From contig JAFGCX010000025.1 in assembly GCA_016932415.1 (NCBI GenBank), positions 1 through 64,000 of the forward strand: DNA of 64,000 bases. The letters are read 5' to 3'. A program made the translations under genes and the position numbers. The notes under the pieces were generated by a model. The model was not told the origin of the DNA, did not search any database, and was given only the letters and a program-made list of their open reading frames with translations. The DNA is from Candidatus Krumholzibacteriota bacterium. GTDB lineage: Bacteria > Krumholzibacteriota > Krumholzibacteriia > Krumholzibacteriales > Krumholzibacteriaceae. How positions within the stretch are numbered: the stretch's first letter is position 1; each line of letters begins with the position of its first letter. Positions 3,739-19,061 of this stretch are shown here, piece after piece.

Positions 3739-4845
3739 TTACTTCGCCGCGGCCGCCATCACCTCCGCGCCATCCACCCAGACAGCCAGGTACGGCAGCT
3801 CTGCGCCCTTGCGCTTGAGATAGAGAAGGAACGGCCTGCTGAAGATAATCGATCTTCCCTCGCCGCCTCCTTTTTTAAGGAAGAATACGCCCTCGGACTC
3901 AAGCTGTACCCCGCTGCTATCGAGCCTGAACCTGACGTCCTGCCTCGCTTCAGCGATGAAATATTCCCTGAATCCTTCATTGCGAAGATACCTGCCGAGA
4001 AGAGGCTTGAAGGAGCATTCCGTGGAAAAATCGACGATTGGAACCAGCAGGATATCTTTTTCGCCGATCAGCTCCGGACTGGCAGCTGACACCTTCCGCG
4101 CGATTTTTTCGTACGTCTTGATCAACGATTCTTCCGGTTCGACGCTTGCCAGTACAAGCTCCTCTTCTGGATCATCGGTTTCAAGCCGGATTATCATCTC
4201 CCCTTTCGGGCTATACTCGAGGATTTCAACCTGGCTTCTCAGGTCTGCCGATCCCCCCTGCGCGCCCGGGCTGATCCCAAAAGCATGGACTTCCATGCTT
4301 CCTGCTGACCCCGAAAACTTCATCGGTCTTTCATATTCCTGAAAAGGCACCCTGAATTTCAGCATTTTGCTGAGAAAAGCGTAAGCAAGTATCCCATCGT
4401 CATCATTATATCTGCTCTCGATGATGGGAGCATTCCCTCCGAATCTGACCCTCAATTCCCTGTTGCTCTTCCCCACGATATCGTCGGCGCCATATCCCGT
4501 CATCACAAGGAAGTCCCTTTCGTTGAGGCCGAATGACTCCCCCGTGACGCTGTTCAACAGGTCGGCCATCTCGATCTGCCTGTCGAGAACGATCTTCTCC
4601 CCTACGATCTCGGTCGCCATCCTGTCCCAGGCGATCTGGAAGGTCGCGCAGAAAAGAACAGCCTTCCCGGGCTCGAAATCATTATCGAGAACGGATGTTA
4701 CGATAAGACCCACTTCCACTTTTTCCGGATCCTCAGCGGATACACTACCGGCTGATCCGGTCCCGCCGTTGACAACCAGGACAACGAGCAGAATCGCAAC
4801 AAACAGGTAAATCCGTTTAACTCCAGCTATTTGATTCATTTCCAT
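3739..4845 (-). CDS. Secreted protein, possible highly diverged serpin-fold protein
   Basis: 368 aa with a clear signal peptide (IYLFVAILLVVLVVNGGTGS) and a GGAAGGG ribosome site before the ATG. No family is obvious, but the order of segments resembles a serpin: a mid-protein LAYAFLSKMLKFRVPFQEY like the s3A/WxxPF region, then VLLVPIVDFSTECSFKPLLG like the strand before helix H, RFRLDSSGVQLESEG in the place of the hinge, and FSRPFLLYLKRKGAELPYLA like the C-terminal F-x-DHPFLF-I signature. An undisputed serpin lies near the right end of the window. The match is by eye and weak; most consensus serpin residues are absent, so a planctomycete-type hypothetical secreted protein is the safe call. 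Confidence 0.55.
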   Translation of the reverse strand: MEMNQIAGVKRIYLFVAILLVVLVVNGGTGSAGSVSAEDPEKVEVGLIVTSVLDNDFEPGKAVLFCATFQIAWDRMATEIVGEKIVLDRQIEMADLLNSVTGESFGLNERDFLVMTGYGADDIVGKSNRELRVRFGGNAPIIESRYNDDDGILAYAFLSKMLKFRVPFQEYERPMKFSGSAGSMEVHAFGISPGAQGGSADLRSQVEILEYSPKGEMIIRLETDDPEEELVLASVEPEESLIKTYEKIARKVSAASPELIGEKDILLVPIVDFSTECSFKPLLGRYLRNEGFREYFIAEARQDVRFRLDSSGVQLESEGVFFLKKGGGEGRSIIFSRPFLLYLKRKGAELPYLAVWVDGAEVMAAAAK

Positions 4846-5036: not shown

Positions 5037-5076
5037 TTGACTGTAAAATGTTATTGTAGTATTGTGGTACTACAAT
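5037..5076 (+). promoter_or_regulatory. Promoter with 9-bp palindromic operator ahead of Rrf2/copper operon
   Basis: TTGACT, 17 bases, TATTGT form a good sigma-70 promoter. Lying across the -10 is a perfect inverted repeat, ATTGTAGTA-N6-TACTACAAT (5053-5076). Position and symmetry are those of a repressor operator; the adjacent Rrf2-family gene is the likely autoregulator. The rest of the 312-base divergent intergenic region (from 4846) holds no visible gene. Confidence 0.65.
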
Positions 5077-5157: not shown

Positions 5158-5559
5158 TTGAACGGATTTATAAAGATATCAAACGCTGCCTCCCTCGCGT
5201 TTCACGCGACGGCATATCTGGCCAGCCATGAAGGCGAACGTATCTCAAACAGGGAAATATCGGAAAGGTTCCTTGTCTCGGACGCGCATCTCGCCAAGAT
5301 CATGCAGAGGTTGCAGAAAGCGGGGATCGTAAAATCGGTCAGAGGCCCCAACGGCGGATATCTGCTCACCCGTTCGCCGGACGATTTTACCCTTACAGAG
5401 ATATACGAGGCTATCGAATCGAAAATCGAGACTGAAGGTTGCCTGCTTGATGAAAATGTTTGCGAGGGGGGATGCCTCCTCGGAGCACTTATAACCAGAC
5501 TGAACAAGGAGGTATGCGAAAAACTGGAGAATACAAGACTGTCAGATGTCAGGATTTAA
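5158..5559 (+). CDS. Rrf2 family transcriptional regulator (cysteine-ligand type)
   Basis: 133-aa winged-helix regulator. The HTH spans roughly residues 28-72 (ISNREISERFLVSDAHLAKI) followed by the family's wing motif RGPNGGYLL. Three cysteines, Cys95, Cys102 and Cys106 (C-x6-C-x3-C), sit where IscR/NsrR-type Rrf2 proteins bind an iron-sulfur cluster, with another at Cys120. The start is TTG, with GAAAGGAT about 11 bases upstream. It is the first gene after a promoter with a palindrome and is followed by the cysteine-repeat protein and Cus-type efflux genes, so a metal- or redox-sensing repressor of that operon is the best inference. The effector is not known. Confidence 0.88.
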   Translation: MNGFIKISNAASLAFHATAYLASHEGERISNREISERFLVSDAHLAKIMQRLQKAGIVKSVRGPNGGYLLTRSPDDFTLTEIYEAIESKIETEGCLLDENVCEGGCLLGALITRLNKEVCEKLENTRLSDVRI

Positions 5560-5667: not shown

Positions 5668-6456
5668 ATGAATTTAAGAATGAACGCGAGATTCCTCATC
5701 GGGGTCGCACTGGTAATGCTCTTCGTCTTCGTGTCAGCTTCGCCTGGTTTTGCCGGCGGCAATAAAAAAGCCTGCTCGGCTGGCCTTTGCGAAGCAGCTG
5801 CCCTTTGCCAGGGTGAAAAAGACCAGGACAAGGTAAAAGAATCCAGGCCCTGCGGCATGCACGAGGGGAAAAAGTGCGAAAATGCCACCGAAGGCAAAGA
5901 ATGTTGCAAGCTGGCCGGCGAAAAATGTGAACACGCGAAGGGTGATAAGGCGTGCTGCAAAATGGCGGAAAATAAGTGTGCCCATGCCGCCGGTGATACT
6001 GCCTGCTGCAAGCATGCCGGGGAAAAATGCGACCACGCGAAGGGTGATAAAGCATGCTGCAAAATGTCCGGTAATAAATGCGATCGCGCGAAAGCTGATA
6101 AGACGTGCTGCAAAATGTCTGAGAAAAAGTGCCCCGGATCTTCCTTAGACAGCGCTGGCTGCAAGCATGCGCAGGTCAGGTGCGACGGGTGCGGGCTGGT
6201 CAAGGGATCTCCCGGCTGTTGCAAGATAGCCAAAGGTGCGAAGAACGCCGAGCTCTGTCTGAAGTGTGGTCAGATCAAGGGCAGCGACCTGTGCTGCAAA
6301 AAGGGCCAGGAAAAGTGCCCCGACTGCGGTCTCGCTAAAGGTTCTCCCGGTTGCTGCAGGATACCCGAAGGCGCGAAAAAAGCAGAACTTTGCGTTAAGT
6401 GTGGATTTATCAAGGGCAGCGAGGATTGCTGCAAGATCGAGAAGAAGAAAGAATAG
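5668..6456 (+). CDS. Exported 37-cysteine repeat protein of the copper-efflux operon
   Basis: 262 aa, very strong ribosome site (AAGGAGG). Residues 1-29 form a signal peptide (FLIGVALVMLFVFVSASPGFA). The mature part holds 37 Cys and two repeat classes: six 17-residue units, residues 67-168, of pattern K-C-x-HA-x-GD-x-A-CC-K; and two 45-residue units, residues 172-261, each with two C-x2-CG-x2-KGS-x2-CC modules. Lysine is abundant and aromatic residues nearly absent. The composition suggests a periplasmic metallothionein-like thiolate metal binder, possibly for Cu(I) or Ag(I), supplying the downstream efflux pump. I do not recognise a named family; function is inferred from composition and operon position. 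Confidence 0.8.
   Translation: MNLRMNARFLIGVALVMLFVFVSASPGFAGGNKKACSAGLCEAAALCQGEKDQDKVKESRPCGMHEGKKCENATEGKECCKLAGEKCEHAKGDKACCKMAENKCAHAAGDTACCKHAGEKCDHAKGDKACCKMSGNKCDRAKADKTCCKMSEKKCPGSSLDSAGCKHAQVRCDGCGLVKGSPGCCKIAKGAKNAELCLKCGQIKGSDLCCKKGQEKCPDCGLAKGSPGCCRIPEGAKKAELCVKCGFIKGSEDCCKIEKKKE
5866..6171 (+). repeat. Six tandem 51-base coding repeats
   Basis: Six in-frame copies of a 51-base unit encode the 17-residue Cys/His/Lys module. Copies 2 and 4 are nearly identical over their core, differing mostly at third positions, which points to recent duplication or conversion. Confidence 0.85.
6181..6450 (+). repeat. Two tandem 135-base coding repeats
   Basis: Two 45-residue units, each made of paired C-x2-C-G/KGS/CC modules, follow the shorter repeats in the same gene. 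The third positions have diverged more than those of the closest 51-base copies, suggesting an older duplication. Confidence 0.8.
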
Positions 6457-6466
6457 TGTAAATGCG

Positions 6467-7813
6467 ATGCGTGTTTTTCCGGCAGGCTACCGCGCGGTCC
6501 TGTTGATCGCGTTTCTCATACCTGCCTCTTCCGGAGCTTTCGAAAGAGACGAGGCCCGGGATATGATGAAAGCCGTCGAAGCGGGGTTCGCTTCGGCCAG
6601 CCCGGCCGGTCCCGGAAACACCCTCGAAGACTACCTCGCTTACGCGGCCCTCAACAATCCCGGTTTGAGGGCCGCCTTTTACAGATGGAAATCCCGTCTT
6701 GAAGGTATTGACGCGGAATCTTCCCTTGCCGATCCGGTTTTTTCCTATAGCTATTTCATTGAGAATATCGAAACGAGGGTGGGCCCGCAGAACCAGAGAT
6801 TCGGTATCAGGCAGAAGTTTCCCTGGTTCGGCACCCTCGGGGCAAAAAGAGATATGGCCGCTGAATCGGCTGCTGGCCTGTATCAGGCTTACCTGTCGGA
6901 AAAACTCTCCCTCTTTCTGCGGGTCAAGGAAGCGTACTACGACTGTTACCTTCTCCGGCGCGAAAGGGAGATCATCGAAGCGGGCGCCGGTCTGCTCGCT
7001 CAGATCGATGCTGTCTCCAGGACACGATATGAAACATCGAGCAGGCGCTACAGCGATCTGGTCAGGCTGGAGATCGAATCGAGCCTTCTCGAGGAGCGGC
7101 TTATATCTCTGGGCGACAGGGAAAAAGCCGCCTCGGCAAAATTAAGAGCTTCTCTTGATCTTCCCGGAACGGCAGAGATAGAAGTATCTGACAGTATTGC
7201 CAGGTTCACCCCATCTCTCGATTTTGAGACTGTAAAGAATGATATTCTCGCGAACAACCCCGATCTGAAAGCGCTCGGCCATATGATCGGAAGGGAAAAG
7301 GCCGCTCTGTCCCTTGCCCGCAGGGAAAGATGGCCGGATCTTACGATAGGGTTCGACTATATCGAGACCGGCGATGCTATCGATCCGACAATGCCCGGCA
7401 GCGGCAAAGACCCCTGGTCGGTCAACTTCGCCGTAGAACTGCCGATCTGGCATGGGAAGAACAGCTCCCGCGGGAAAGAAGCGCTAGCCGGCATCGAGAT
7501 GACCAGATATCTCCTCAGGGACCGGAAGAACAGTCTTGTAGCTCTCGCCGAAGAGGTTTTTTCCGAATATATCGAAGCGGGGCGCGATATTGATCTCTAC
7601 GGCAACGATCTGATCGCAAAAGCAGAGCACCTTCTAATCGTCACATTTGAAGAATATAAAACAGGAACGGCGGATTTTTCGGAACTTGTCGACGCGCAGC
7701 GCCAGCTTCTCGATCTGAGGCTTGAGCGTGAAAAAGCGATGGTCGTTGAAGCGAAAAAATTGGCGCTGATTGAGATGCTGACAGGGAAAGAACTCATGCA
7801 GGGTTCTGATTGA
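6467..7813 (+). CDS. TolC-family outer membrane efflux protein (CusC-like)
   Basis: 448 aa. The signal peptide is residues 1-24 (VLLIAFLIPASSGAF). Two outer-membrane-factor repeats are visible, each starting with a helix that contains the family pattern N-NP-L (NNPGLRAAFYRW near residue 60; NNPDLKALG near 265), followed by long coiled helices and GIRQKFPWFG and AVELPIWHGKN beta-barrel strands. The ATG lies 10 bases after the preceding stop; a longer open frame upstream is only the out-of-frame shadow of the cysteine-repeat gene. It should form the outer-membrane exit duct of the tripartite pump encoded by the next genes. Confidence 0.9.
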   Translation: MRVFPAGYRAVLLIAFLIPASSGAFERDEARDMMKAVEAGFASASPAGPGNTLEDYLAYAALNNPGLRAAFYRWKSRLEGIDAESSLADPVFSYSYFIENIETRVGPQNQRFGIRQKFPWFGTLGAKRDMAAESAAGLYQAYLSEKLSLFLRVKEAYYDCYLLRREREIIEAGAGLLAQIDAVSRTRYETSSRRYSDLVRLEIESSLLEERLISLGDREKAASAKLRASLDLPGTAEIEVSDSIARFTPSLDFETVKNDILANNPDLKALGHMIGREKAALSLARRERWPDLTIGFDYIETGDAIDPTMPGSGKDPWSVNFAVELPIWHGKNSSRGKEALAGIEMTRYLLRDRKNSLVALAEEVFSEYIEAGRDIDLYGNDLIAKAEHLLIVTFEEYKTGTADFSELVDAQRQLLDLRLEREKAMVVEAKKLALIEMLTGKELMQGSD

Positions 7814-7826
7814 AAGGAAGTCATTG

Positions 7827-8321
7827 ATGAAAATAATTACCATAATCTTCGCAGTGGTGATCGCCATAACTGCGTACGCAGGATTTTCTAACGCGCAGGT
7901 AACCGTGCCCAAACTTGTCGACGCCGGATCGATTGAAACGATAGGGTTGAAGAAACAGACCCTCTGCCCCGTCATGGGCAACCCGGTCGATCCAAAGATT
8001 TTCACAGATATTCAGGGCCAGCGGGTCTATTTCTGTTGCGCGATGTGCATCGACCAGTTCAGGGCAGCCCCCGGTAAATATTTCGAACAGGCGCGGATCG
8101 ACTCGGTACTTTTCGAGAATATACAGACGACCTGCCCGATTTCCGGAGACGTGATCGACAGGAAGTTCTTCACCTGGTACAAGGGCCGCGGTATCTACTT
8201 CTGCGGCGAAGAATGCAAAAAGATATTTGATTCCGATCCGGAAAAACAAATGGGTAAACTCGGCAAAGAGGAAGAAAAAAAGATCGAAAAAGAAAAGATG
8301 AAAGTCGAAAATGAACAGTAA
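7827..8321 (+). CDS. Exported protein with two YHS/TRASH-like metal-binding domains
   Basis: 164 aa, signal peptide residues 1-23 (IIFAVVIAITAYAGFSNA). Two similar modules follow: residues 46-86 with Cys47, Cys70, Cys71 and Cys74 (CPVMGNPVDP...YFCCAMC), and residues 102-140 with Cys103, Cys126 and Cys130 (CPISGDVIDR...YFCGEEC). The pattern CPxxG-N/D...Y-F-C-x2-C is that of YHS/TRASH heavy-metal modules found in copper-responsive proteins. The tail is highly charged Glu/Lys. AAGGAAG precedes the ATG. Its end overlaps the adaptor gene by 11 bases, implying coupled translation. A periplasmic copper donor or sensor role is inferred. Confidence 0.8.
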   Translation: MKIITIIFAVVIAITAYAGFSNAQVTVPKLVDAGSIETIGLKKQTLCPVMGNPVDPKIFTDIQGQRVYFCCAMCIDQFRAAPGKYFEQARIDSVLFENIQTTCPISGDVIDRKFFTWYKGRGIYFCGEECKKIFDSDPEKQMGKLGKEEEKKIEKEKMKVENEQ

Positions 8322-10170
8322 AACAGCTTTAAATAGCAGGAACGGGCTGATACTCCTCGCGGCCATTGTTCTCATTGCTTTTATGGCCGGGTACTTTTCC
8401 CGCGGAAATCGCGATTCCGGGGAAATCCCGGGCGAGCATGAGCATTCGGGCAGCGTTACAGCCGAAGTATCGCAAACGGCCTTGTGGACATGTTCGATGC
8501 ATCCTCAGATCAAACTTCCCTCTCCGGGAAAATGCCCGATCTGTTTCATGGACCTGATCCCGGTTGAAACCGGCTCCGGCGATGACCGCCTTGAAGAACG
8601 GCAACTGAGAATGACACCGGCCGCAATCAAGCTCGCCGGGATCGTGACAGCTCCAGTCACGCGTGGGTTCGTCGAAGCTGAGATACGGGTGACTGGCGAC
8701 ATCACCAATGACGAGACCCGTGTCACCTATATATCATCCCGGATGCCCGGGCGGCTCGATCGTCTTTTTGCCGATTATACGGGGATCGAGGTGAAAAAAG
8801 GTGATCCTTTAGTCAGTATCTACTCCCCCGATCTTGTAGGCGCGCAGGAGGAACTTCTCCAGGCAGCCGTGATGAATAACAAGGAGAAAGGATCGAACAG
8901 GTTCCTGGAAAAGGGTGCAGAGCCGACCCTGGCGGCAGCGAGGGAAAAACTGAGATTGCTCGGCTTCGATAAAAGCCAGATAGAACAGATCGAATCTTCA
9001 GGAAAAACGACCGATCACATGACGATATTTTCACCGGCCGAGGGAACGGTAATTGAAAAATCCGCTTTCGAAGGGATGTATGTAGAGACAGGCACGAAGA
9101 TATACACTATATCGAAGATGTCGAGCCTGTGGGTGAATTTCGACGTTTTCCAGAGCGATCTTCCCTGGCTGAGGGAAGGACAGCCGGTCGAATTTGCGAC
9201 ACCCTCGCATCCTGGAGAAAAATTCACCGGTATCATTTCTTTCATCGACCCTGTTTTCGACGATGAGACTCGCACGGTATCGATAAGGGCTGAATTCGAC
9301 AACTCCGGTGGTCGGTTGAAACCGGGGATGTTCGTCAGCGGCAATATTAAAGCCCGCCTTGACAGGCTCGGCAGAGCTGTCGACGATCGGGCGGCAGACC
9401 TCTCGGAAGCTCCCCTTGTGATCCCGGCCACATCGGCTTTGCTGACTGGTACGCGGGCAGTGGTCTACGTTAGATTACCCGGCGGATCGGAGCCTCTTTT
9501 TGAAGGGCGCGAAATAGCCCTCGGCCCGAGGGCCGGTGAATATTACATAGTAAGATCGGGCCTTGAAGAAGGAGATCTCGTCGTCGTGAACGGAGCATTC
9601 AAAATCGACAGCGAGCTTCAGATAAGGGCAAGACCGGGTATGATGTCGTCGATCGGATCGGGCACTCCACGATCATCGAAAGAGAATGAAGAAAAGGCCG
9701 GTCATCAGGTTCGGCGGCAAGGTTTCCAGTCGCTAGGGCCTGTCTATGAATCATATTTCGCCGTACAGATGGCGCTGGCAGGAGATGACCTCGTTTCCGC
9801 GTCGAAAGGAAACGCCGCTCTCGTCAATGCTCTCAGGCAGGTCGACCGTTCTCTTTTCGAAGGAAAACTCGCCGGATCATGGAAAAAATTATCGGCCGAT
9901 CTCGTCAGGGAAGCTGAAGCGGGAGAATCGGCCAGGACGATATCGGAATCGCGCGAAGCATTCTACAACCTGTCGAAATCGATGATCAGTCTTCACGATA
10001 ATTTCGGACATCCCGGGAAGAACGATTTTTTCCTTACCTATTGCCCGATGGCCGACGGCAACAGGGGCGCCTTCTGGCTTCAGGCGGTCGACACTGTTTA
10101 TAATTCCTTCTACGGAGCTTCCATGCTCCGATGCGGCTCGATTGAGAAAACCCTGCCCCCGGCAAGGTAG
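8311..10170 (+). CDS. cusB: CusB-like RND efflux periplasmic adaptor with heavy-metal-binding and DUF3347 domains
   Basis: 619 aa. An N-terminal membrane anchor (LILLAAIVLIAFMAGYF) is followed by a heavy-metal-binding domain at residues 59-85 with Cys61, Met63, His64, Cys75, Cys78 and Met80. Then come the membrane-fusion-protein parts: barrel-sandwich hybrid (SRMPGRLDRLFADYTG; FSPAEGTVIEKSAFEGMYV), helical hairpin, and beta-barrel (LWVNFDVFQSDLPWLREGQ). Residues 480-615 match DUF3347, ending in the signature YCPMADG...GAFWLQ...MLRCG. This arrangement is typical of CusB/SilB proteins in FCB bacteria. It links the RND pump to the TolC-like channel and hands Cu(I)/Ag(I) to the pump; metal specificity is family inference. 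Confidence 0.9.
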   Translation: MNSKTALNSRNGLILLAAIVLIAFMAGYFSRGNRDSGEIPGEHEHSGSVTAEVSQTALWTCSMHPQIKLPSPGKCPICFMDLIPVETGSGDDRLEERQLRMTPAAIKLAGIVTAPVTRGFVEAEIRVTGDITNDETRVTYISSRMPGRLDRLFADYTGIEVKKGDPLVSIYSPDLVGAQEELLQAAVMNNKEKGSNRFLEKGAEPTLAAAREKLRLLGFDKSQIEQIESSGKTTDHMTIFSPAEGTVIEKSAFEGMYVETGTKIYTISKMSSLWVNFDVFQSDLPWLREGQPVEFATPSHPGEKFTGIISFIDPVFDDETRTVSIRAEFDNSGGRLKPGMFVSGNIKARLDRLGRAVDDRAADLSEAPLVIPATSALLTGTRAVVYVRLPGGSEPLFEGREIALGPRAGEYYIVRSGLEEGDLVVVNGAFKIDSELQIRARPGMMSSIGSGTPRSSKENEEKAGHQVRRQGFQSLGPVYESYFAVQMALAGDDLVSASKGNAALVNALRQVDRSLFEGKLAGSWKKLSADLVREAEAGESARTISESREAFYNLSKSMISLHDNFGHPGKNDFFLTYCPMADGNRGAFWLQAVDTVYNSFYGASMLRCGSIEKTLPPAR

Positions 10171-14009: not shown

Positions 14010-14048
14010 TTGACATCTTCCTAATATAGGACTATATTAGTCCTATAT
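14010..14048 (+). promoter_or_regulatory. Consensus promoter overlapped by a 10-bp inverted repeat
   Basis: TTGACA, 17 bases and TATATT form a near-perfect sigma-70 promoter. A perfect inverted repeat, ATATAGGACT-N5-AGTCCTATAT (14024-14048), covers the -10 and predicted start point. The inner GACT/AGTC half-sites recall IscR-type Rrf2 sites; the Rrf2 gene two kilobases downstream is the likely repressor. Confidence 0.7.
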
Positions 14049-14067
14049 AAAGGTTATCGATTTCCCG

Positions 14068-16029
14068 GTGCCTTGGCGGAAAGGGAAGTCGGCCGGACGG
14101 GACCATCGAATGAATGATCTGCCTGTCTGGGTATTAACTGGAGGTACTCCCATCGACTCATCGCAGTCCATAATTGACAATGAAGGTTTCTCTGCCAACC
14201 CGGTCGAAGCTCCTGGAGATTTCACCAACAGGCTGATCTCGGAAAGCAGCCCCTACCTGCTTCAGCATGCCCATAATCCGGTGGACTGGTACCCATGGGG
14301 GGAAGAGGCCTTCCGGAAAGCGAAAGAAGAGGACAAGCCGATCTTCCTCTCGATCGGTTATTCGACGTGCCACTGGTGCCACGTCATGGAAAGGGAATCT
14401 TTCGAGAATGACAGGATCGCCTCCCTTCTCAACGGCGATTTTATCTCGATAAAGGTGGACAGGGAAGAAAGGCCGGAGATAGACGATCTCTACATGAAAG
14501 CTGTCCAGATGATGACCGGACAAGGTGGCTGGCCGATGTCGGTCTTCATCACCCCCGGTGGCCTTCCCTTTTTCGGCGGCACCTATTTCCCGCCTGAAGA
14601 AAAATATGGAAGGCCGGGATTCACTGATATTCTTACAAGCATCTCGAAAATTTGGAATAACGACAGGAAAAAGATAGAAGATTACTCCGGGAAGATGCGC
14701 GATGGATTAATTTCAATAAATGATTCTGAAAAAAAGACCGTGATCTCCGGATCTCTGCTGGCTGATTTTCTTTCGAACATGAAAGATTCTTTCGATCCGG
14801 AGTCTGGAGGGTTCAGGGGAGCTCCCAAATTCCCGCAACCGGCGCATATCTCCCTGCTGCTGAAAATCTGGAAAAGAGATGATGACCCCGATGCCCTCCG
14901 AATGGCCGAATCGACTCTGAAAGCGATTATGCGCGGAGGGATCTACGATCATATTGGAGGCGGGTTTCACAGATATTCGACCGACTCGAAATGGCTGATA
15001 CCTCATTTCGAAAAAATGCTGTACGACCAGGCTTTGATGGCGAAGGTATATATCGAAGCATTTCAGGTGACGAAAAATAAAGAGTTCGCGCGGGTCGCGC
15101 GGGAGACTCTTGATTATATCCTGCGCGACATGACTGACATAAACGGCGGTTTCTTCAGCGCTGAGGATGCCGATACCAAAGGAGCTGAAGGCACTTTCTA
15201 CGCATGGTCTCCGATTGAAATAATCGACGCCTTGGGAGCTGAAGATGCCGCCGTTTTTAACAACTATTACAATGTTACCCGGGAGGGGAATTTCGAGGAT
15301 GGCCTTACCATTCTCAATATTACCGGATCAACTGACGCTCTTGCAGAACAGACAGGTAATGACCCTTCCCGGGTCCAATCGATCCTGGCGGCGGGACGAA
15401 GCACCCTTCTCGAGCGCAGATCGCTTCGGGAACGGCCGATGGTGGACGACAAGATAATAACCGCCTGGAACGGCTTGATGATCTCAGCGATGGCCTTCAC
15501 CGGAGGTGCCCTTGGCGAGAAGAGATATACGGAAGCCGCCGGCCGAGCGGCACGATTTCTCCTCGATCATTCGTTCGAAGATGGAAGACTTATGCGCTAT
15601 TACCGGGATGGAAAGACGCGCGGACTGGGAGTGCTTGACGATTACGCCTTTCTACTGCTCGGGCTTATAGACCTCTACCAGGCGACGCTGGACAGCAGTT
15701 GGTTGAAGGAAGCTTCGATTCTGGCCGGCAAAATGACAGCACTTTTCTATGATGATAAAAATGGAGGTTTTTTCCTTACAGGCTCCGACACCGATGTAAT
15801 CCTTGTCCGCGATAAACCCGCTTATGACGGCGCCATTCCCTGTGGGAATTCCGTCGCCGCGCTTGATCTTCTCCGGCTTGGACGCCTTCTTTTCGATGAG
15901 CACCTTTCGGAAGAAGGGGAAAAGACCCTTGAAGCTTTTTCATGGAGAGCGGAGCGGTCACCAGCTTCCCTGCCTGTGATGTTGGGCGCGGTCGATTATT
16001 ACCTTGGCCCTCCGGGGAAATCGTTATAA
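14068..16029 (+). CDS. DUF255 thioredoxin-fold protein (YyaL/SPATA20-like)
   Basis: 653 aa with GTG, or about 639 aa from the ATG at 14110; neither start has a convincing ribosome site. The family N-terminus is evident: [21 protein letters not shown], then a thioredoxin-like active site CHWCH (Cys101, Cys104) with [10 protein letters not shown] and [11 protein letters not shown]. Residues about 240-650 form an (alpha/alpha)6 barrel like AGE/glycosidase folds ([33 protein letters not shown]). The family is widespread but its biochemical role is unsettled; disulfide chemistry is probable. Control by the overlapping palindrome and by the Rrf2 regulator that follows in the same direction is inferred. 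Confidence 0.85.
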
Positions 16030-16096
16030 TCTGATGAGGTCGGCGCGGTACGGAATACTGCCGATCGACTGATACTTACAGTGGAGGATGTGGATT

Positions 16097-16534
16097 ATGG
16101 AGATACTTCGCAGAAATACTGATTATGCCCTGCGGGCCCTTGTAATACTGGGCCGGACGGAACAAGACATGCCGGTTCCGGCGAGTAAGCTCGCCGAGCG
16201 CGAAAAGATCTCGTATCCGCTTACCTGCAAGCTGCTTCAGAAACTTCAGAAAGCGAAGATCGTGCAAAGCAGGATGGGGCCATCTGGCGGATTTCAGCTC
16301 AGGAGAGATTCCTCAGATATCAGCCTGCTCGAGATCATCGAGGCGATACAAGGTCGTATTCTCGTCAACGCCTGTTTCAGTGATGACTTTCTTTGCGAAA
16401 AAAGTCCAACCTGCCTTACGAAGGCAAAGCTCCAATACCTTCAGGACCATCTGGAAAACTACTTCAGCGGGCTTACTCTCGCCGACATCATTGAAGATAA
16501 GGGAAAAAGAAAGAAAACTGTCAGGATAAGATAA
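16097..16534 (+). CDS. Rrf2 family transcriptional regulator
   Basis: 145 aa. A winged HTH (VPASKLAEREKISYPLTCKL) and wing MGPSGGFQL match the family. Cys93, Cys100 and Cys106 (C-x6-C-x5-C) are placed to ligate an iron-sulfur cluster, as in IscR/NsrR/RsrR. The second ATG is chosen because GGAGG lies 9 bases before it and directly abuts the first ATG. It follows the DUF255 gene by about 70 bases, probably on the same transcript, which suggests a self-controlled redox-responsive unit. It is clearly distinct in sequence from the Rrf2 protein at the head of the copper operon. Confidence 0.88.
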   Translation: MEILRRNTDYALRALVILGRTEQDMPVPASKLAEREKISYPLTCKLLQKLQKAKIVQSRMGPSGGFQLRRDSSDISLLEIIEAIQGRILVNACFSDDFLCEKSPTCLTKAKLQYLQDHLENYFSGLTLADIIEDKGKRKKTVRIR

Positions 16535-16787: not shown

Positions 16788-17279
16788 TCAATCTTCCATG
16801 AATGTCGTCGAATCCATATCGAACCAGTAAAAACTGTCAATCAATGAATTCTTTTCCGCCAGCAGCAGATTGTAATGCCCCAGTTCTTCTTCGGCAAGAC
16901 TTAAAAAGAGGCTTTTCAGATCTTTTTCGACAGCCTTGTCTGCTTCCTTCTGGTAGAAGTCATTGGCGTTTCCCTCCGCCTCGATGGCGATATCGAGAGC
17001 GGCAAGAGCTCCCGCCACCTCGCCAACGGCTATGCCGCGGATCTCCGACTCCCTGATCTTGCTTGGAGAGGGAATGAATTTCTCGTTAAAAAGTTTCTTG
17101 TACCATGATTCGAGTTTTTCGCGATGGCCCTGTTCGTCATCGGAGAGACTGAGAAAGATCTTTTTCCCGCCGGAGTTGGTGATACTTCCCCCGATATTCC
17201 TGTAAAAGTTGCTGGCGCCGATCTCCTTGTATATCGCGTTGACGAGAGCCTCTTTCATAGCGTCATTCCTGTCAGGCAT
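16788..17279 (-). CDS. Ferritin-like diiron protein (rubrerythrin-type)
   Basis: 163 aa, a single four-helix bundle with two E-x2-H elements. Likely diiron ligands are Glu19, Glu49 with His52 (DDEQGH), Glu100/Glu102 and Glu132 with His135 (EEELGH). It resembles erythrin-type rubrerythrins that lack the C-terminal rubredoxin domain; the separate rubredoxin gene directly downstream could supply that function. Peroxide or oxygen reduction is the family role. The frame may start at the internal Met8. It lies 3 bases after the end of the phosphatase-fusion gene, so the two are very likely co-transcribed. Confidence 0.85.
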   Translation of the reverse strand: MPDRNDAMKEALVNAIYKEIGASNFYRNIGGSITNSGGKKIFLSLSDDEQGHREKLESWYKKLFNEKFIPSPSKIRESEIRGIAVGEVAGALAALDIAIEAEGNANDFYQKEADKAVEKDLKSLFLSLAEEELGHYNLLLAEKNSLIDSFYWFDMDSTTFMED

Positions 17280-18351: not shown

Positions 18352-18804
18352 CTAGTCTTCCTTTAGTATCTCGTCGTCGTATTCGATCTCGAATCTCAGC
18401 TTGTGCTTTGCCTCTTCCTGGGCCAGGCGTAGAAACAACTCTTTCATCTCCGGGATATCCGTCTGGCCGGCAAGGTCCTGATAGAGTCTGAAAGCGGCTT
18501 TTTCAGCCTTCATCGCTATTATCAGCGCCTTCTGGTAATCGAAATCTTCCGAGGGATCGACATCAACGAGGTAATCGGCGATCTTCAGGTCTGTGACCTT
18601 TTTCTTCTCGGGAAGTTCCAGCCTGCCTTCCTTGACACCGAGGAGTTTCGCCTTATGTCCCTTTTCCTCTTCGGCAAATCCAAGGAAGACCTCTTTCATA
18701 TTCTTGTGCGGGACCTTCTCCGCCAGTTCGGTATAGAACCTGGCCGCTTTTTCTTCCTCTCCGATAGCGAATTCGATGATCTGCTCTATATTGTCGAAAC
18801 TCAT
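18352..18804 (-). CDS. Ferritin-like diiron protein (rubrerythrin family)
   Basis: 150 aa four-helix bundle. Ligand candidates are Glu17/Glu18, Glu47 with His50 (EEEKGH), Glu101 and Glu131 with His134 (QEEAKH). No rubredoxin domain is attached. The start is the third ATG of a cluster, chosen because AAGGAG sits 7-8 bases before it. It is the first gene of a leftward group with the ferritin-phosphatase fusion, a second ferritin-like protein and rubredoxin. It probably reduces peroxide or handles iron in the cytoplasm; no signal peptide is present. The 240 bases upstream contain nothing I recognise. Confidence 0.88.
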   Translation of the reverse strand: MSFDNIEQIIEFAIGEEEKAARFYTELAEKVPHKNMKEVFLGFAEEEKGHKAKLLGVKEGRLELPEKKKVTDLKIADYLVDVDPSEDFDYQKALIIAMKAEKAAFRLYQDLAGQTDIPEMKELFLRLAQEEAKHKLRFEIEYDDEILKED

Positions 18805-19061
18805 CATCTTCTCCTTCATCTTTTACCGTTTCCACGGGGACAATTTAAGTTTCAATTATCTGTATTCCGGTTTTTCGCGACTGCCCGCCCCTGCGTCTTT
18901 CCCGACATTCCAGTAAAAGGCACGCACAGTATATTAATAGATGCTCCCGGCTTTTTCAATCTTCAAATACTCCGCTTTCCAAAGAGAGTTCCCGCTACAC
19001 AACGGTTTTCCCTCTTAGGCAGGTATTTTTCATCATGGTCCGATCATCTGCTACGGTTCGA

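Follow-up and report, generated by a model that had tools for sequence, protein, structure and literature searches.

Bacterial metallothioneins are known as small proteins (under about 100 residues) of the cytosol; the periplasm, being oxidising, is considered a poor place for thiol sinks. The genes of the Cus system follow the order cusCFBA, and Rrf2 sensors hold Fe-S clusters at the Cys of their sensor loop. Among the systems closest to the locus described here, the metallothionein MymT has a size of 4.9 kDa and Csp1, a Cys-rich store of Cu(I), is a Tat-exported four-helix bundle (PMC7558416).

In this analysis, we followed up CysRep, a repeat protein encoded in the window, by which we mean the whole 64-kb stretch of DNA that was analysed. 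CysRep resembles the metallothioneins SmtA/BmtA and MymT in having many Cys residues arranged as in metal-thiolate clusters and few aromatics (just one after the signal peptide), but it differs from them in its apparent export, its 262 residues, its conserved repeats with near-invariant KGSPG loops and the lack of any sequence match to them. With Csp1 it shares predicted export, a high Cys content and, as we propose, a role as a Cu(I) store, whereas its signal is Sec-like, its Cys pattern is another and it matches no Pfam model. No four-helix bundle was seen in its two AlphaFold models, both of which are of low confidence (pLDDT 50-53). Like CusF, CysRep would be a periplasmic protein encoded alongside CusC, CusB and CusA; unlike CusF, it is Cys-based, is encoded before CusC and gives no CusF match, and a YHS protein is encoded between CusC and CusB. 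From its sequence we infer that CysRep would work like an exported metallothionein or Csp1, although by the tests made it is a member of neither.

All 37 Cys lie in the mature part of CysRep. They account for 13.7% of the codons of its open frame, which has 271; among the window's 188 frames with 100 codons or more, the runner-up reaches 6.9% and is antisense to CysRep. The N-terminus, MNLRMNARFLIGVALVMLFVFVSASPGFA-GG, resembles a Sec signal, with a mean hydropathy of 2.8 in its h-region and without twin Arg. The first-pass annotation had placed a signal-peptide-bearing protein with 37 Cys at 5668-6456, and the open reading frame, the Cys count and the Sec-like N-terminus were all confirmed. 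Its remark that the composition resembles that of a metallothionein and yet the protein is exported agrees with the clustered Cys behind a Sec-like signal; no metallothionein model was matched. It was also right in recognising no named family, as CysRep had no match in Pfam or NCBIfam (0 at E<=1) or among PDB sequences. Comparison with the PADLOC defence systems likewise gave no match.

The repeats of CysRep are evident at both the DNA and protein levels. Mechanical direct-repeat detection identified a 51-nt period (4.2 copies, 5914-6128), a 102-nt repeat family (5869-6123) and a 135-nt pair (6158-6427), and the mature protein contains nine copies of the motif C-x8-CC, whereas composition shuffles predict 0.84 and none of 20,000 reached nine. 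Six 17-residue repeats had been claimed, of which five are regular and the sixth is degenerate; three of the five have C-x-H, and the place of this His is taken by Asn in one and by Arg in another. The two 45-residue repeats that had been reported are present and could be refined, each being composed of two half-repeats with the spacing C-x2-C-x8-C-C (6181-6222, 6256-6297, 6316-6357 and 6391-6432). A comparison of the 17-mer KCxHAKGDKACCK with the half-repeat KCPDCGLAKGSPGCC revealed five non-Cys identities (P ~0.012, one permutation), which is suggestive only of the 17-mers being shortened half-repeats or derived from them. The two 45-mers have a dS of ~1.6, close to synonymous saturation, and are therefore old, which rules out their recent expansion. 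Coordinates are collected in Table 1.

Table 1. Features of the CysRep locus, with positions in the window; functions are predicted from sequence.
Feature	Position	Strand	Basis or remark
Promoter-like site with inverted repeat, candidate Rrf2-A operator	5037..5076	+	Consensus match; putative function
Rrf2-A regulator, sensor-loop Cys C-x6-C-x3-C	5158..5559	+	PF02082 E=5.9e-30; alignment
CysRep, predicted exported 37-Cys repeat protein	5668..6456	+	ATG start, 262 aa; predicted signal peptide ~5668-5754
CysRep N-terminal 17-residue repeat block	5875..6177	+	Five regular C-x8-CC units and one degenerate
CysRep conserved family module	6181..6432	+	Four half-repeats C-x2-C-G-x2-K-G-S-x2-C-C
CusC/TolC-like outer membrane factor	6467..7813	+	PF02321 E=6.5e-38; starts 10 nt past CysRep stop
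Exported protein with two YHS domains	7827..8321	+	PF04945 E=1.2e-12
CusB-like adaptor	8311..10170	+	N-terminal heavy-metal-binding domain, C-terminal DUF3347; PF16576, PF19335, PF11827
CusA-type RND pump, 1257 aa	10186..13959	+	TIGR00914 752 bits over cut-off 701
Strong promoter-like site and candidate operator before DUF255	14010..14048	+	TTGACA-17-TATATT, 11/12 consensus
DUF255 / Thioredox_DsbH protein, CHWCH motif	14068..16029	+	PF03190 E=2.5e-78; without signal peptide
Rrf2-B regulator, RRNTDYA subtype, C93/C100/C106	16088..16534	+	PF02082 E=5.3e-32; alignment

A genome search with the 45-mer identified relatives of CysRep in 5 of 80 genomes of the window's own phylum (the window's included), in 16 of 392 genomes of Planctomycetota and in 5 of 44 genomes of the phylum of a metagenome-assembled genome labelled Chlamydiae, whereas none were found in plasmid, phage and viral collections. 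CysRep is therefore not an orphan gene, and its repeat is a protein family absent from the annotation libraries searched; a literature search for its KGSPGCC motif found no paper containing it. The family comparison comprised 25 proteins, CysRep of the window and 24 relatives, in which half-repeats number from 1 to about 8 per protein and are normally paired (CxKCGQIKGSxxCC, then CxxCGLxKGSPGCCKI). Most half-repeats of the relatives retain the spacing C-x2-C-x8-C-C, and KGSPGCC is nearly invariant. The linkers of metallothioneins are usually far less conserved than the KGSPG loop, which points to a specific fold or to a partner for the latter. By eye, every one of the 24 relatives whose N-terminus is complete appeared to be exported, having either a signal peptide or a lipoprotein-type Cys, the latter in many Planctomycetota relatives.

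In what follows, G000 is the genome of the window, G001 is of the same genus, and G009 and G015 are of the same family. The repeats common to CysRep and its relative in G001 gave a dN of 0.17 and a dS of 1.9; CysRep is therefore maintained by purifying selection (dN/dS ~0.09). Together with the shuffles and the relatives, this ratio rules out a chance or wrong frame. The number of half-repeats differs between genomes (four in G009, six in G015), and the 17-mer array of G000 is absent from G001. Of the rapid copy-number change that had been proposed from the DNA repeats, the difference between congeners thus stands, but not for the 45-mers of the window, given their age.

The five genes from CysRep through the TolC-like, YHS and CusB-like genes to the CusA-type pump are separated by 10, 13, -11 and 15 nt, and the window therewith has a CusB adaptor and an outer membrane factor of the CusC kind encoded together in a single operon. 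The gene order given in the first-pass annotation, with CysRep before TolC-, CusB- and CusA-like genes, holds, except that the YHS protein between TolC and CusB was unmentioned. This protein occupies the place of CusF in cusCFBA; no CusF match in Pfam was found for it or for CysRep. CysRep repeats also occur joined to a YHS domain in two relatives, from G400 (its YHS part matches the window YHS protein at E=1e-15) and from G392 (E=9e-27, two-sequence comparison); a literature search for YHS, Cus and copper together found no paper. In the alignment with 3NE5, Met722, Met772 and Met861 of the window CusA align with M573, M623 and M672 of E. coli CusA, which form its Cu(I) triad (PMC8092243). The triad is complete, and the pump is therefore, by its sequence, of the Cu(I)/Ag(I) type.

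The association of the family with such operons is much narrower than the first-pass annotation had implied. The window does have a Cu-type CusA operon, but a Cus operon lies within or directly beside the CysRep locus in only 3 of the 27 family-bearing genomes, namely those of the window and of G009 and G015, and in the last two CysRep follows CusA, whereas in the window it precedes CusC. G030 has a CusA-like gene ~6 kb from CysRep, and elsewhere CysRep is not beside Cus genes. In G001 the Rrf2-A-CysRep pair is kept and the block of Cus, DUF255 and Rrf2-B is absent. These results rule out Cus linkage as a general rule of the family, and copper may therefore not be its general ligand. A cysteine desulfurase-like gene adjoins the Cus operon in both G015 and G009, and in G009 it is preceded by DsrE and TusA genes, placing sulfur transfer near the copper pump and CysRep.

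Genes for Rrf2-type regulators adjoin CysRep, or lie within a few genes of it, in G000, G001, G009, G015, G081 and G479. Three Cys at the sensor place are common to all seven Rrf2 proteins aligned, and judging by these three residues those of the window probably carry Fe-S clusters. The likeness to IscR extends to PF02082, the three sensor-loop Cys and a GACTA-WWW-TAGTC palindrome over a promoter, but Rrf2-A falls far under the equivalog cut-off of the NCBIfam IscR model (64 bits, cut-off 207.55), and the presumed targets comprise CysRep, DUF255 and stress genes rather than isc. In Pseudomonas, a gene under IscR repression is induced by copper, though a high dose is required (PMC6084964). Divergent from Rrf2-A in the window is a gene (3739-4845, -) for a 368-residue protein with a signal-like N-terminus and no Pfam match.

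Upstream of Rrf2-A, the promoter-like TTGACT-17-TATTGT (5037-5065) is overlapped by ATTGTAGTA-N6-TACTACAAT (5053-5076). A second putative operator, the 25-bp ATATAGGACTATATTAGTCCTATAT at 14024-14048, has perfect 11-bp arms and overlaps the promoter-like site before DUF255. Compared with the IscR type 1 motif ATASYYGACTRWWWYAGTCRRSTAT (PMC3899308), its core GACTA-WWW-TAGTC and outer ATA/TAT fit, but the triplet beside each half does not. The core GGACTATAnTAGTC has a single exact match in the 3.1-Mb genome of the window and eight in the 27 genomes, against five for the reversed control pattern. Four of the eight are in CysRep clusters: before DUF255 in G000, before CysRep-Rrf2 in G009 and G015, and before Rrf2 in G081. 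The shared candidate operator in the window suggested looking for a nearby gene of the Rrf2 subtype seen in G009, G015 and G081, and Rrf2-B was then found, co-directional with and 3' of DUF255, its ATG probably at 16097. A longer operator pattern was not enriched in Planctomycetota, with seven matches, fewer than for the reversed control; three of the seven are beside Rrf2 genes.

Several further observations concern these sites. Positions 14010-16534 of the window have the form of a self-contained unit of a near-consensus promoter, a 25-bp palindromic operator, DUF255 and Rrf2-B. The core GGACTATAnTAGTC also precedes DUF255 in G010, in which CysRep was not detected. In G015 it is found before a gene for a TlpA-like thioredoxin and before a gene for a FUR-family regulator, which is followed by an ODP (flavodiiron-like) gene; possibly, the G015 sites are an oxidative-stress regulon of Rrf2-B.

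DUF255 (PF03190), which Pfam still lists as of unknown function, is encoded within 8 kb of CysRep in 6 of the 16 genomes having both (G000, G081, G205, G479, G499 and G501). The expectation was 0.08 genomes (P ~5e-10, or 3e-8 if G499 and G501 are counted once, both values presuming uniform gene placement). The DUF255 proteins of the five genomes other than the window's have a signal peptide or a lipoprotein-type Cys. In addition, CysRep has DsbD/CcdA and thioredoxin domains as direct neighbours in G181 and G392. As a whole, therefore, the earlier reading of the locus was supported in part, having missed the wider family, the link to DUF255 and DsbD, the fusions with YHS, and the pair of Rrf2 regulators with an operator.

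The reading we favour, to which we would give an even chance on the sequence evidence, is that CysRep is a modular metal-thiolate sink of the cell envelope, for Cu(I) in this organism, whose thiols are maintained in reduced form by thioredoxin-fold partners and whose gene is derepressed upon Fe-S failure. It is favoured because of the four-Cys half-repeats, their variable copy number, the predicted export, the YHS fusions and the Cus operon. Each half-repeat would supply four Cys and three of the 17-mers three Cys and a His, and these sites would bind ions of soft metals, mainly Cu(I)/Ag(I). Acting beside the YHS protein and CusCBA, CysRep would buffer periplasmic Cu(I), which CusB and CusA would remove. 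The Rrf2-type regulators, probably Fe-S proteins, would repress the CysRep operon and the nearby DUF255 unit until copper or oxidants damaged their clusters and lifted repression; the Rrf2 link fits such deployment upon Fe-S cluster damage. The thioredoxin-fold partners (DUF255 here, DsbD and thioredoxin in relatives) may keep the Cys of CysRep reduced and fit the need of a sink for reduced thiols. Against a sink, the Cys might be no more than disulfides, given the oxidising periplasm; the narrow Cus linkage, the strong conservation of the KGSPG loop and the high dose needed for copper induction of the IscR target also count against this reading.

More tentatively, and with somewhat less than even probability, CysRep may belong to an envelope thiol system in which an exported Cys-repeat sink and an exported thioredoxin-fold CHWCH DUF255 reductant are both deployed by an Fe-S-sensing Rrf2 repressor in response to Fe-S cluster breakage by metals or oxidants, CusCBA having been added in one lineage. 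A system of this type would be previously undescribed. If it exists, it gives DUF255 a testable role and extends metallothionein-like buffering outside the cytoplasm; from a widespread exported Cys-repeat family linked to reducing enzymes and to regulators of the Fe-S type, one would learn how Cu(I) is buffered in some bacteria ahead of Fe-S enzymes.

The main rival to the metal sink is a thiol redox buffer of the envelope, in which pairs of Cys would switch between the dithiol and the disulfide state, with reducing power coming from exported DUF255, thioredoxin or DsbD and going to oxidants or nitrosative stress, Cus being a lineage-specific addition. It accounts equally well for the company of DUF255, DsbD and rubrerythrin: DUF255, DsbD/CcdA, thioredoxin and TlpA-like proteins are neighbours, exported or lipoprotein DUF255 is beside exported CysRep in five genomes, rubrerythrin and Hcp/prismane genes are near CysRep, and the FUR-family regulator and flavodiiron-like ODP protein are under the same operator core. 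We nevertheless consider it rather unlikely, as it leaves the YHS and Cus links unexplained: a plain redox buffer needs neither strict four-Cys spacing nor fused or co-operonic YHS metal domains nor Cus genes, and carriers seldom require up to 37 arrayed Cys.

The YHS fusions could also be explained by delivery, in which the repeats would fold into zinc-ribbon-like knuckles and hand over a metal, copper or a different one, to a partner (such as YHS, CusB or a metalloenzyme of the envelope) without storing it. The CxxCG knuckles and KGSPG loops, both conserved, point to a fold, and one CysRep relative has a weak match to the HVO_2753_ZBP zinc-finger model (20.8 bits, cut-off 33.2). However, a range of 1 to about 8 half-repeats is typical of capacity rather than of a delivery site, and there is no common client enzyme next to CysRep genes, leaving delivery improbable. 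Least credible, and in our view highly improbable, is a structural, disulfide-rich protein of the envelope or surface with no metal role: the proteins are Lys-rich and repeat-bearing, in many Planctomycetota they are lipoprotein-like, and several loci lack a metal or redox gene nearby, but vicinal CC is present in nearly every half-repeat and the family is linked with reducing enzymes, with control by Rrf2 and with Cus and YHS genes.

Genes for rubrerythrin-domain proteins are present in the window at 16788-17279 and 18352-18819 (-), and the same genes adjoin the Rrf2-A-CysRep pair in G001, in which synteny is kept. The gene between them in the window has a relative in G001 that fuses rubrerythrin to a SpoIIE phosphatase domain. 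Hcp/prismane-like genes are near CysRep in three genomes (loci L021, L092 and L093), and in both L021 and L092 an HD-domain gene lies between Rrf2 and CysRep.
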